Below, piece after piece: positions 51,891 to 54,339 of a stretch of 64,000 bases of DNA. The DNA comes from Pseudothioclava arenosa (GTDB lineage: Bacteria > Pseudomonadota > Alphaproteobacteria > Rhodobacterales > Rhodobacteraceae). Location: the NCBI RefSeq assembly GCF_002358085.1, contig NZ_NTJD01000001.1:124001-188000 (forward strand), in the 5' to 3' direction. Made by a program: the position numbers and the translations under genes. The notes beneath the pieces are model-generated. The model did no database searches. It saw only the letters and a program-made list of their open reading frames with translations, and had not been told where the DNA came from. Positions within the stretch are counted from its first letter, which is position 1, and each line of letters begins with the position of its first letter.

Positions 51891-52831
51891 CCGCGCCTCC
51901 GCAACCGCGGGTCGATCGCGGCATAGGTCAGGTCGGTGACGAAGGTCACGAGGATCACGGCGCAGACCAGCACCATCACCGCCGATTCCACGACGATCAG
52001 ATCGCGCTGGGTGATCGCCTGAAAGATCAGCCGCCCCAGTCCCGGCAGGTAGAACACGTTCTCGATGATGATCGCGCCCGCCAGCAGAAAGGAAAACTGC
52101 ATGCCGAGGATCGTCAGCACCGGGATCAGCGCATTGCGCAGCGCGTGGCGCGAGAGCGCCTGCGCCCGGCTCAGCCCCTTGGCGCGCGCGGTGCGGATAT
52201 AGTCGCGCCCCAAGGTCTCGATCAGGGCCGATCGCAGCACCCGCGCAAGGATCGCCGCCTGCGGCAAGGCTAGCGCCACCGCCGGCAAGGCCAGCGATTT
52301 CAGCGCCGCGAGCGGATCGCTCCAGCCCGCGAAACCGCCCGCTGGCAACAGCCGCCATTTTACCGCGAACACCAGCACCAGCAGCATCGCGAACCAGAAA
52401 TTCGGCAGCGCGATCCCAAGCTGCGCCATCCCCATCAACGCCACCTCCGACGGCCGTCCGCGCCGTGCCGCCGCCCAAAGCCCCACCGGCAGCGCGATCG
52501 CTGAAGCCAGCGCCAAGGCCAGCAAGGCGAGCGGCAGCGACACCTGCAACCGCGCCGCCAACAGCTCGGTCACCGGCACCTTGTAGGTAAAGCTCTGCCC
52601 GAAATCGCCCTGCATCAGCCCCGCGACCCAGCGCAGGTAGCGCAGCCACACCGGGTCATCGAGCCCCATCTGCTCGCGCAGCGCGGCCAGCGTGTCGGGG
52701 GCTGCGTTGATCCCCAGCATGAAGCTCGCCGGGTCTCCGGGCACCACTTCGATCAGCGCGAATATGACCAGACTGGCCACCGCCAGCGAGGCGAACAGCG
52801 TCGCGATCCGTTTGAGAAAATAGCGGCCCAT
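51887..52831 (-). CDS. ABC importer permease, DppB-type
   Basis: 314 residues. Seen: MGRYFLKRIATLFASLAVASLVIF (1-24, first helix), the long periplasmic loop with GLDDPVWLRYLRWV (about 55-68) and GDFGQSFTYKVPV, five further helices, and the coupling loop RDYIRTARAKGLSRAQALSRHALRNALIPVL (about 210-240). First gene of the importer operon; its 3' end overlaps the DppC-type gene by four bases. Start at 52831 is the usual family start; the open frame continues far upstream without similarity. Confidence 0.9.
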   Translation of the reverse strand: MGRYFLKRIATLFASLAVASLVIFALIEVVPGDPASFMLGINAAPDTLAALREQMGLDDPVWLRYLRWVAGLMQGDFGQSFTYKVPVTELLAARLQVSLPLALLALALASAIALPVGLWAAARRGRPSEVALMGMAQLGIALPNFWFAMLLVLVFAVKWRLLPAGGFAGWSDPLAALKSLALPAVALALPQAAILARVLRSALIETLGRDYIRTARAKGLSRAQALSRHALRNALIPVLTILGMQFSFLLAGAIIIENVFYLPGLGRLIFQAITQRDLIVVESAVMVLVCAVILVTFVTDLTYAAIDPRLRRRG

Positions 52832-52905
52832 CCCCGGCAGGTTCGACTGCGCCGCGCGCGGGGTCAAGGGGGGCGATGCATACCGTCGAAAATCCGGGCC
52901 CCGGC

Positions 52906-52934
52906 CTTTCATCGAGCATGAAATACTCTGGGGG
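52906..52934 (-). repeat. GTATTT dispersed repeat, subfamily A, in a divergent region
   Basis: Plus strand CTTTCATCGAGC, then AAATACTCTGGGGG, with mini-hairpin GGGGGCAAAGCCCCC to its right. It lies between the divergent importer operon and the creatinase gene, so it is not a 3'-end element here. Confidence 0.75.
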
Positions 52935-52983
52935 AGGCGCATGGTGCCGGGGGCAAAGCCCCCTTCGCAAATCTGTTGCGCAG

Positions 52984-53127
52984 ACGCGCCCCTTGCGGCA
53001 CCATCAGGCCGAGCGTGGCGATGGCGTCGCCGCAGGGGCGTCCCCCCAAGCTTGCGGCCTGGCCCGCATTCGTCCTGTACGCCGGGATCTTTCAGGTCCC
53101 GCGCAGCCCGTGGGATCGCCCACGGAG
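52984..53127 (+). promoter_or_regulatory. Structured 5' leader of the creatinase gene (candidate regulatory RNA)
   Basis: The 302-base stretch 52832-53133 has no gene. After the repeat it holds: a long nested hairpin 52984-53041 (13 base pairs between 52984-52999 and 53029-53041 with two bulges, then CCATC/GATGG 53001-53005 with 53020-53024, then GCC/GGC); CGGGA/TCCCG (about 53083-53101); and a perfect 7-bp hairpin CCGTGGG-ATCG-CCCACGG (53108-53125) whose last bases are part of the GGAG Shine-Dalgarno (53124-53127). The arrangement (aptamer-like domain, then a site that can hide the ribosome-binding site) resembles a riboswitch. No known family recognised. Confidence 0.45.
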
Positions 53128-53133
53128 ATGACG

Positions 53134-54339
53134 ATGACTCGACCCGAATTCTACACCTGCGAAAACGGCCACAAGGCGGTGCTGCCCTTTGCGGCGGCCG
53201 AATATGAGGCGCGGCTTGCCGGGCTGCGCGCAGCGATGGCGGCCGAGGGGCTGGGCGCCTGCCTGCTGACCTCGATGCAGAACATCGCCTATTACTCGGG
53301 GTTTCTCTATTGCAGTTTCGGCCGGCCCTACGGGCTGGTGGTGACGGCGGATCGCTCGGTGGTGATTTCCGCCGGGATCGACGCGGGCCAGCCCTGGCGG
53401 CGCTGCTTTGGCGAGGCGCTGACCTATACCGACTGGGCGCGCGACAATTTCTGGCGCGCGGCGCGGCACCTGATCGGGCCGGGTGCGGCGCTCGGCGTCG
53501 AGGCCGATCACCTGACACTGCAAGCGGCGGAAAAGCTTGTTCATTTCCTCGCCCCGGCACGGCAGCTCGATATTGCCCCCGCCACGATGCGCCAGCGCAT
53601 GGTGAAAAGCCCGGCCGAGATTGCGCTGATCCGTCATGGCGCGGCGGTGGCCGATGTCGGCGGCTACGCGATCCGCGACACGTTGCGCGAAGGCATCCGC
53701 GAGATCGACGTGGCGATGGCCGGGCGCGACGCGATGGAGGCCGAGATCGCGCGCCGTTTCCCAGAGGCCGAGTATCGCGACACCTGGGTCTGGTTTCAGT
53801 CGGGGATCAATACGGATGGCGCGCATAACCCGGTGACGGGGCGCGCCTTGCGCCGCGGCGATATCCTCAGCCTGAACTGTTTCCCGATGATCTCGGGCTA
53901 TTACACGGCGCTCGAACGCACGATGTTCCTGGGCGAAGTCGATGACGCGAGCCTGCGCATTTGGGAGGCCAATGTCGCCGCGCATGAGCTGGGGCTGAGC
54001 CTGCTGCAGCCCGGCGCGCGCTGCGATGAGGTCACCCATCAGATCAACGCCTTCTTCGCCGAGCGCGACCTCTTGCAATATCGCAGCTTCGGCTACGGCC
54101 ACAGCTTCGGCGTCCTGTCGCATTACTACGGGCGCGAGGCGGGGCTTGAGCTGCGCGAGGATATCGACACGGTGCTTGAACCCGGCATGGTGGTTTCGAT
54201 GGAGCCGATGCTGACCCTGCCCGAGGGCCTGCCCGGCGCGGGCGGCTACCGCGAGCACGACATTCTGGTGATCGGGGCAGAAGGCGCCGAGAATATCACC
54301 GGATATCCTTACGGACCTGCCTTCAACGTGGTCGGATAA
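53134..54339 (+). CDS. Creatinase (creatine amidinohydrolase)
   Basis: Hydrolyses creatine to sarcosine and urea. 401 residues, the size of Pseudomonas creatinase (about 403), with long stretches that match it from memory: FLYCSFGRPY (57-66), GQPWRR (85-90), DTWVWFQSGINTDGAHNPVT (216-235) with catalytic His231 (His232 in Pseudomonas), DILSLNCFPMISGYYTALER with Glu261 (Glu262), and FGYGHSFGVLSHYYGREAGL followed by VVSMEPM near 357. These are creatinase-specific and fit poorly to aminopeptidase P or ectoine hydrolase, the pita-bread relatives. Start 53134 has GGAG six bases upstream. Divergent from the importer operon. Confidence 0.92.
   Translation: MTRPEFYTCENGHKAVLPFAAAEYEARLAGLRAAMAAEGLGACLLTSMQNIAYYSGFLYCSFGRPYGLVVTADRSVVISAGIDAGQPWRRCFGEALTYTDWARDNFWRAARHLIGPGAALGVEADHLTLQAAEKLVHFLAPARQLDIAPATMRQRMVKSPAEIALIRHGAAVADVGGYAIRDTLREGIREIDVAMAGRDAMEAEIARRFPEAEYRDTWVWFQSGINTDGAHNPVTGRALRRGDILSLNCFPMISGYYTALERTMFLGEVDDASLRIWEANVAAHELGLSLLQPGARCDEVTHQINAFFAERDLLQYRSFGYGHSFGVLSHYYGREAGLELREDIDTVLEPGMVVSMEPMLTLPEGLPGAGGYREHDILVIGAEGAENITGYPYGPAFNVVG

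Follow-up and report, generated by a model that had tools for sequence, protein, structure and literature searches.

The stretch of Pseudothioclava arenosa DNA analysed here, 64,000 nucleotides long and called the window, carries a creatinase (creatine amidinohydrolase) gene preceded by a structured leader (Table 1). In the PDB, the gene product is matched best by three creatine amidinohydrolases (E 5e-159 to 2e-148), and the first of them, 1CHM (E 5e-159), covers residues 4-400, which indicates full-length homology. The Pfam domains of the protein are Creatinase_N and Peptidase_M24. The catalytic residues of creatinase, which we take to be Phe62, Arg64, His232, Tyr258, Glu262, Arg335, Glu358 and His376, are all identical in the alignment with 1CHM (eight of eight, counted by eye). 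Creatine is the substrate of creatinase, and sarcosine and urea are its products. A preliminary description of this DNA had assigned the gene to an enzyme for a guanidino compound, and both the PDB matches and a gene context of guanidino metabolism bear this out. The divergent neighbour on the 5' side is an oligopeptide-type ABC transporter operon.

The conserved element upstream of the gene is built by two short hairpins, A and B, which are separated by a linker of variable length. The stem of hairpin A can be extended to 53015/53033. Its loop, UGGCG (5 nt), is identical in 115 of 115 creatinase leaders, and the loop of hairpin B, UGNACGCCN (9 nt), has seven of nine positions identical in the same 115 leaders and varies at the third and the last. 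The distance between the 11-nt core of hairpin A and the CTG of hairpin B is 22 to 68 nt in the 115 leaders and 45 nt in the window, and the matched coding start lies 68-202 nt from hairpin A and 34-139 nt from hairpin B. The GGCG of the first loop and the CGCC of the second are complementary in 69 of 69 sequences and never vary, so that covariation is no test of a kissing helix; we infer that the two loops may pair in the RNA.

Table 1. Features of the creatinase gene and its leader (positions in the window)
Feature	Position	Strand	Details and basis
Predicted -35 element, TTGCGC	52976..52981	+	43 nt before the hairpin A anchor
Predicted -10 element, CACCAT	52999..53004	+	Weak, 3/6 to TATAAT; spacing 17 from -35
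Hairpin A, GGCGA-UGGCG-UCGCC	53017..53031	+	Stem 53017-53021 with 53027-53031, loop 53022-53026; invariant loop, covarying stem
Possible loop-loop (kissing) helix	53023..53083	+	GGCG 53023-53026 with CGCC 53080-53083; inferred
Linker of variable length	53034..53071	+	Length differs among 115 leaders
Hairpin B, GUCC-UGUACGCCG-GGAU	53072..53088	+	Stem 53072-53075 with 53085-53088, loop 53076-53084; nearly invariant loop, covarying stem
Predicted anti-B hairpin	53084..53100	+	GGGAUC 53084-53089 with GGUCCC 53095-53100; probability 1.0 in the free RNA of the window
Shine-Dalgarno-covering stem, CCGTGGG/CCCACGG	53108..53125	+	53108-53114 with 53119-53125; fold z -4.40; GG of GGAG covered
Shine-Dalgarno sequence, GGAG	53124..53127	+	Sequence; 6 nt before the ATG at 53134
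Creatinase (creatine amidinohydrolase) gene, 401 aa	53134..54339	+	PDB match and Pfam

Creatinase homologues at E <= 1e-50 are found in 135 of 198 genomes of the same family, and 130 creatinase upstream regions (30 + 100 loci) were examined, with 11 further rows, mostly fragments, left out. The preliminary description had proposed to look for conservation upstream of orthologous creatinase genes. The two-part motif is present by pattern in 115 of the 130 regions, and the covariance model adds L089 and L118, which gives 117 of 130. In L089 the stem of hairpin A is fully altered (GGCCG/CGGUC) and the loop UGGCG is retained. The 13 regions without the motif belong to 11 paralogues at 55-59% identity (L129-L139) and to the divergent L127 (66%) and L128 (63%). 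The leader is absent from 11 of 11 members of this second creatinase group, L129-L139, and the RNA therefore tracks one orthologue group. Model R1 has hits in 277 of 394 family genomes (E <= 0.01). In an order draw, some of whose genomes also belong to the family set, it has hits in 273 of 390 (E <= 1e-5). Matches of R1 between 1e-5 and 0.01 were excluded as members, and some of them (L188, L190) resemble decayed or doubtful leaders. Searches spanning more than 40 genomes used stricter filters, and L287 is a duplicate of the L178 leader.

The letters of the loops are fixed in the 115 leaders and the stems vary with compensation. Among 69 distinct sequences, changes on both sides are found in seven of the eight pairs of hairpin A and in all four of hairpin B; overall they are found in 11 of 16 tested pairs. 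The covariation score of these 69 sequences is 0.183, against at most 0.081 in slid-partner controls, and is reached by none of 500 shuffles. A second alignment, with 32 rows in common and nine additional leaders from other genes, scores 0.260 against at most 0.099 in its controls. Covariation had also been suggested as a check in the preliminary description. When the 1,081 column pairs from 114 distinct leaders are ranked by covariation, predicted stem pairs take the first seven places, and hairpin A stands at the head of this list. A tree-based null in which all pairs were pooled gives these seven expected counts of 0.075 to 8.9, so each single pair is modest and the ranking carries the argument.

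Outside the family, nine matches at E <= 4.3e-6 are found in 385 + 398 genomes (class and phylum draws); they come from five other alphaproteobacterial families and all stand before creatinase. Among the carriers from beyond Rhodobacteraceae, record titles name Granulosicoccus, a Granulosicoccaceae bacterium, a SAR116 bacterium and Thalassospira. Weaker matches outside the family are found in 29 genomes (E 7.8e-6 to 0.001): the seven examined are in-frame chance matches or have no recognisable linked gene downstream, and the same holds for L236 and L338. This distribution bears on the possibility that a regulatory protein or a trans-acting small RNA, and not a small molecule, is bound by the two hairpins. 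Two short hairpins with fixed loops and varying stems would suit such recognition. Yet the unit recurs before creatinase in the five other families and in the four kinds of record just named, as a self-contained switch would, and its two loops match each other. We consider a protein or small RNA site unlikely; the leader RNA is likely to be a riboswitch.

The genes downstream of the motif give its chemical context. Besides creatinase, they encode L-arginine:glycine amidinotransferase-like proteins, EamA transporters and SDR proteins. The best PDB match of the amidinotransferase relative is 1JDX/1JDW (E 1.6e-84). Pfam EamA is found in three of four tested transporters; the fourth, L186, lacks a Pfam hit but shares 64% identity with one of the others. 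A GTDB pattern scan gave at least 118 stretches, of which 80 were taken as loci. Among the GTDB matches listed, 82 occurrences in these 80 loci stand before creatinase (72), EamA (5), amidinotransferase (3) and an SDR remnant (1), and one is a chance match; the 72 creatinase cases consist of 69 found by tblastn (62-84% identity) and three at locus ends, assigned by eye. A further 96 motif loci comprise 85 creatinase genes (one remnant, one broken), six EamA, three amidinotransferase and one SDR gene, and one chance match. These 96 come from L140-L269 minus nine long loci, with 25 of 121 dropped because the motif search pattern did not fit them and L270 and L271 outside the count; 38 of the 96 repeat cores present among the 115 leaders. 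The dropped loci include L171, a creatinase leader whose loop is a variant. The linkage to the other genes is partial, as among the homologues in 100 genomes the motif is present before four of 17 amidinotransferase genes (absent from 13) and two of four EamA genes (absent from two).

In the genome G073, creatinase and amidinotransferase genes lie one gene apart and each has its own leader. Five genomes with a leader (G047, G107, G170, G183, G134) have no creatinase at E <= 1e-50; the leader stands before EamA in the first four, in G183 also before SDR, and before amidinotransferase in G134. Genome G080 likewise has no creatinase match at E <= 1e-50. Its locus L161 has a high-scoring intact leader followed by an apparently truncated creatinase, of which a C-terminal piece is left (61 residues matched), and the front of the gene has seemingly been lost and the leader kept. 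At L196 (in G183) and in the first copy of L320 (Litoreibacter halocynthiae) the motif stands before SDR, which is an apparent remnant in L320, and a similar second protein comes next in both.

A conserved, covarying leader RNA is thus linked to guanidino-acid genes across several families. L-arginine:glycine amidinotransferase uses arginine and glycine and makes guanidinoacetate. A guanidino acid is suggested as the ligand because it is the chemistry common to this enzyme and creatinase. Creatine itself is a testable guess drawn from the linked genes, and it is weakened by the amidinotransferase, which is not an obvious target for creatine induction. Export of this guanidino acid would be a fitting role for an EamA transporter in genomes that lack creatinase. 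Alternatively, the leader could sense a ligand of another kind, such as sarcosine, urea, glycine or arginine. The first two are the products of creatinase and the last two the substrates of the amidinotransferase, and an amidinotransferase gene with a leader (L215) lies near apparent dimethylglycine dehydrogenase and Rieske oxygenase genes (by eye). Against this, the chemistry that the two enzymes appear to have in common is that of the guanidino acid, and such a ligand is rather improbable, slightly more so than the protein or small RNA site; a guanidino acid is preferred.

The leader reaches the cut-off of none of the RNA families of Rfam 15. At gathering score, nothing is found in the window except a tRNA elsewhere, and membership of the leader in any Rfam family was rejected. 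Five sub-threshold matches of the leader have E 0.84 to 9.3, and the best of them, an integron leader on the + strand, is taken as chance. For guanidine-II, matches are lacking in the window at gathering score, within 52950-53180 up to E 10 and in 16 relatives up to E 1. The preliminary description had seen no guanidine-sensing motif that it knew, in agreement with the absence of such a family at cut-off.

Guanidine-II (mini-ykkC) is nevertheless the closest in layout. It is described as two connected stem-loops whose loop-loop pairing forms the guanidinium pocket and activates the gene, with a linker of 14 nt in one example (PMC5486947). The creatinase leader also has two loop-complementary hairpins before a gene for a guanidino compound. 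In contrast to the similar stem-loops of guanidine-II with ACGR tetraloops, its loops, UGGCG and UGNACGCCN, are unlike each other in 115 of 115 leaders. The creatinase leader motif is therefore laid out like guanidine-II and is not a member of it. Guanidine-IV (mepA) and the GGAM candidates are leaders of guanidine-related genes, for which a two-hairpin kissing form is discussed in PMC7736828. These are terminator-based, whereas the creatinase leader has no Rfam match to them and an intrinsic terminator platform was rejected, no terminator-like site being found in 52600-53400. The SAM/SAH riboswitch is another small class found in Rhodobacterales (PMC2864571). It differs in standing upstream of metK and in forming an H-type pseudoknot on one stem-loop (PMC7367207), and the creatinase leader has no Rfam match to it. 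No published account of the motif or of a bacterial creatine-sensing RNA was found in the open-access literature, which was covered mostly by titles. Terms beginning with creatin- or amidino- are absent from PMC8632094, PMC2864571, PMC11109978 and PMC7736828, and PMC7266159 has only 'Creating'.

A promoter-like signal lies upstream of the motif. In 80 of 115 leaders one of the pentamers TTGCC, TTGCG, TTGAC, TTGAT and TTGTC lies 30-50 nt upstream of the anchor of hairpin A, and such -35-like pentamers are found in 0 to 21 leaders in other 20-nt bins. A scan by promoter consensus gives no promoter-like site at the window leader. The family signal suggests a transcription start at about 53010-53012, a few bases before hairpin A, and the conserved motif is probably part of the transcribed leader, because the promoter-like signal lies upstream of it. 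A start downstream of 53100 had been named earlier as the finding that would speak against a leader RNA; the signal instead points to a start upstream of the motif.

The same position near a promoter-like signal (80 of 115 leaders) raises the question of whether the palindrome GGCGATGGCGTCGCC, an inverted repeat, acts at the DNA level as an operator bound by a transcription factor. The outer letters of its arms vary with compensation and its centre is fixed, which is unlike a typical operator. Moreover, hairpin B covaries too, and G-U pairs outnumber A-C pairs (43 vs 22), a modest sign of a + strand RNA. An operator is accordingly very improbable.

A repeat with AATACTCnGGGGGAGG is found ten times in the window at <=3 mismatches (1.2 expected), at 52922-52963 and in nine other places, for example 1858, 11184, 30720, 44475, 47996 and 63068. 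A GGGGGC..GCCCCC hairpin, which itself has 18 matches on both strands (1.1 expected), is found no more than 40 bases from nine of the ten copies. One copy of the repeat lies just 5' of the predicted creatinase promoter.

The preliminary description had drawn the leader differently, with a long nested hairpin (52984-53041), a 7-bp stem over the Shine-Dalgarno sequence and the layout of a translation-controlling riboswitch. Both hairpins do fold, the first at -36.2 kcal/mol where shuffled sequences average -26.8 (z -3.64) and the second, in 53105-53130, at -13.8 (z -4.40), both stretches having been picked post hoc. Taken whole, the leader (52984-53160) folds unremarkably for a sequence of its composition (z -1.01, with 33 of 200 shuffles equally good), and the same goes for 53011-53136 (z -1.17, 26 of 200). 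The 7-bp stem can form over the GG of the GGAG in the window but has no counterpart in L003, the sole same-genus relative compared, or in the next nearest, L004; in some relatives the Shine-Dalgarno sequence is covered by other pairings. The 5' arm of the long hairpin lies over the spacer and the -10 region of the family-inferred promoter, so it is probably absent from the RNA. That these two hairpins, which fold better than shuffles, are the functional element is hardly credible given the missing stem in L003 and L004, the promoter overlap and the whole-leader z of -1.0, and they were rejected as the conserved element. The observation of a structured leader before creatinase is thus confirmed in part and its interpretation is supported in part: conserved, covarying RNA structure does precede creatinase in many genera, but it is carried by other hairpins, which lie between the two first named.

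How the conserved hairpins could act on the gene is suggested by the predicted folds. The two hairpins with their nearly invariant loops would form a compact receptor, probably through the GGCG:CGCC helix, and binding of a guanidino acid, with creatine as first and guanidinoacetate as second candidate, would stabilise this loop-loop helix. Without ligand, the 3' strand of hairpin B would take up an alternative pairing downstream, covering the Shine-Dalgarno sequence in some leaders. With ligand, hairpin B would be kept, the alternative pairing blocked and translation of creatinase raised.

Folding calculations support the competing pairing of the 3' strand of hairpin B. This strand (GGGAYC/GGAYC) is predicted to pair downstream with a mean probability of 0.775, against 0.518 in shuffled sequences (115 leaders), and with more than 0.8 in 68 of 115 leaders. 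In the window its partner is the anti-B strand, and the anti-B pairing and hairpin B are mutually exclusive. The Shine-Dalgarno sequence itself takes this partner role in some short leaders, as in L011, where GACCUUU pairs with AAAGGAGGGUC. With hairpin B formed, the calculated opening of the Shine-Dalgarno sequence changes by a mean of +0.075, against +0.023 in shuffled sequences (115 leaders counted as independent). The change exceeds 0.1 in 44 of 115 leaders, against 12 of 115 shuffled means, and is below -0.1 in nine of 115. These values lend modest support to an ON switch on translation in creatinase leaders, which is the preferred direction. The shift is absent from amidinotransferase leaders (mean +0.018, n=8) and EamA leaders (mean -0.04, n=8).

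The window leader itself has a calculated opening change of nil (-0.016), because the 7-bp stem stays. In its free fold hairpin A has a probability of 0.16 and hairpin B of 0.00. Forcing both hairpins to form costs 11.5 kcal/mol relative to the free fold, before loop pairing or ligand is considered. By eye, the GGUCCC of the window (53095-53100) could also pair with GGGAUC (53112-53117), which is part of the anti-Shine-Dalgarno strand; such a relay is possible, and the constrained fold does not favour it.

Some leaders of other arrangement were also noted. In eight of eight amidinotransferase leaders examined (L183, L192, L193, L280, L317, L346, L392, L395) a stable hairpin with a GGGA or GCAA tetraloop follows hairpin B and takes in its 3' strand, and the creatinase leader L350 (Neomegalonema) has a sequence resembling this tetraloop hairpin after B. 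In L298 (Hyphomicrobiales MAG) the Shine-Dalgarno sequence follows directly after hairpin B (GGAUCAGGAG) and matches its 5' strand UCCUG, and this leader is a minimal form of the competition between the Shine-Dalgarno sequence and hairpin B.

The leader combines a conserved, covarying structure with a place before functionally related genes, which is one of the features expected of a riboswitch. We consider it reasonably probable that it represents a class of cis-regulatory RNA not described before, most likely riboswitches, in which a two-hairpin receptor for a guanidino acid would raise creatinase translation. Ligand identity, ON direction and translational control are suggested here by sequence and predicted folds. 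In a bolder and more tentative reading, it may be the first natural riboswitch class that senses creatine or guanidinoacetate, with two hairpins joined by their loops, independent of guanidine-II, and controlling creatinase, amidinotransferase and probably EamA export.

The motif is a candidate riboswitch class that is ready to test, is unmatched in Rfam 15, has well over 100 representatives and comes with a ligand guess based on its genes. Should creatine or guanidinoacetate prove to be its ligand, bacteria would be seen to monitor such compounds directly by RNA, and the class would be a second RNA design that reads guanidinium groups through paired loops, would hint at what the EamA transporters and amidinotransferases behind this leader do, and could serve as a genetically encoded creatine sensor.
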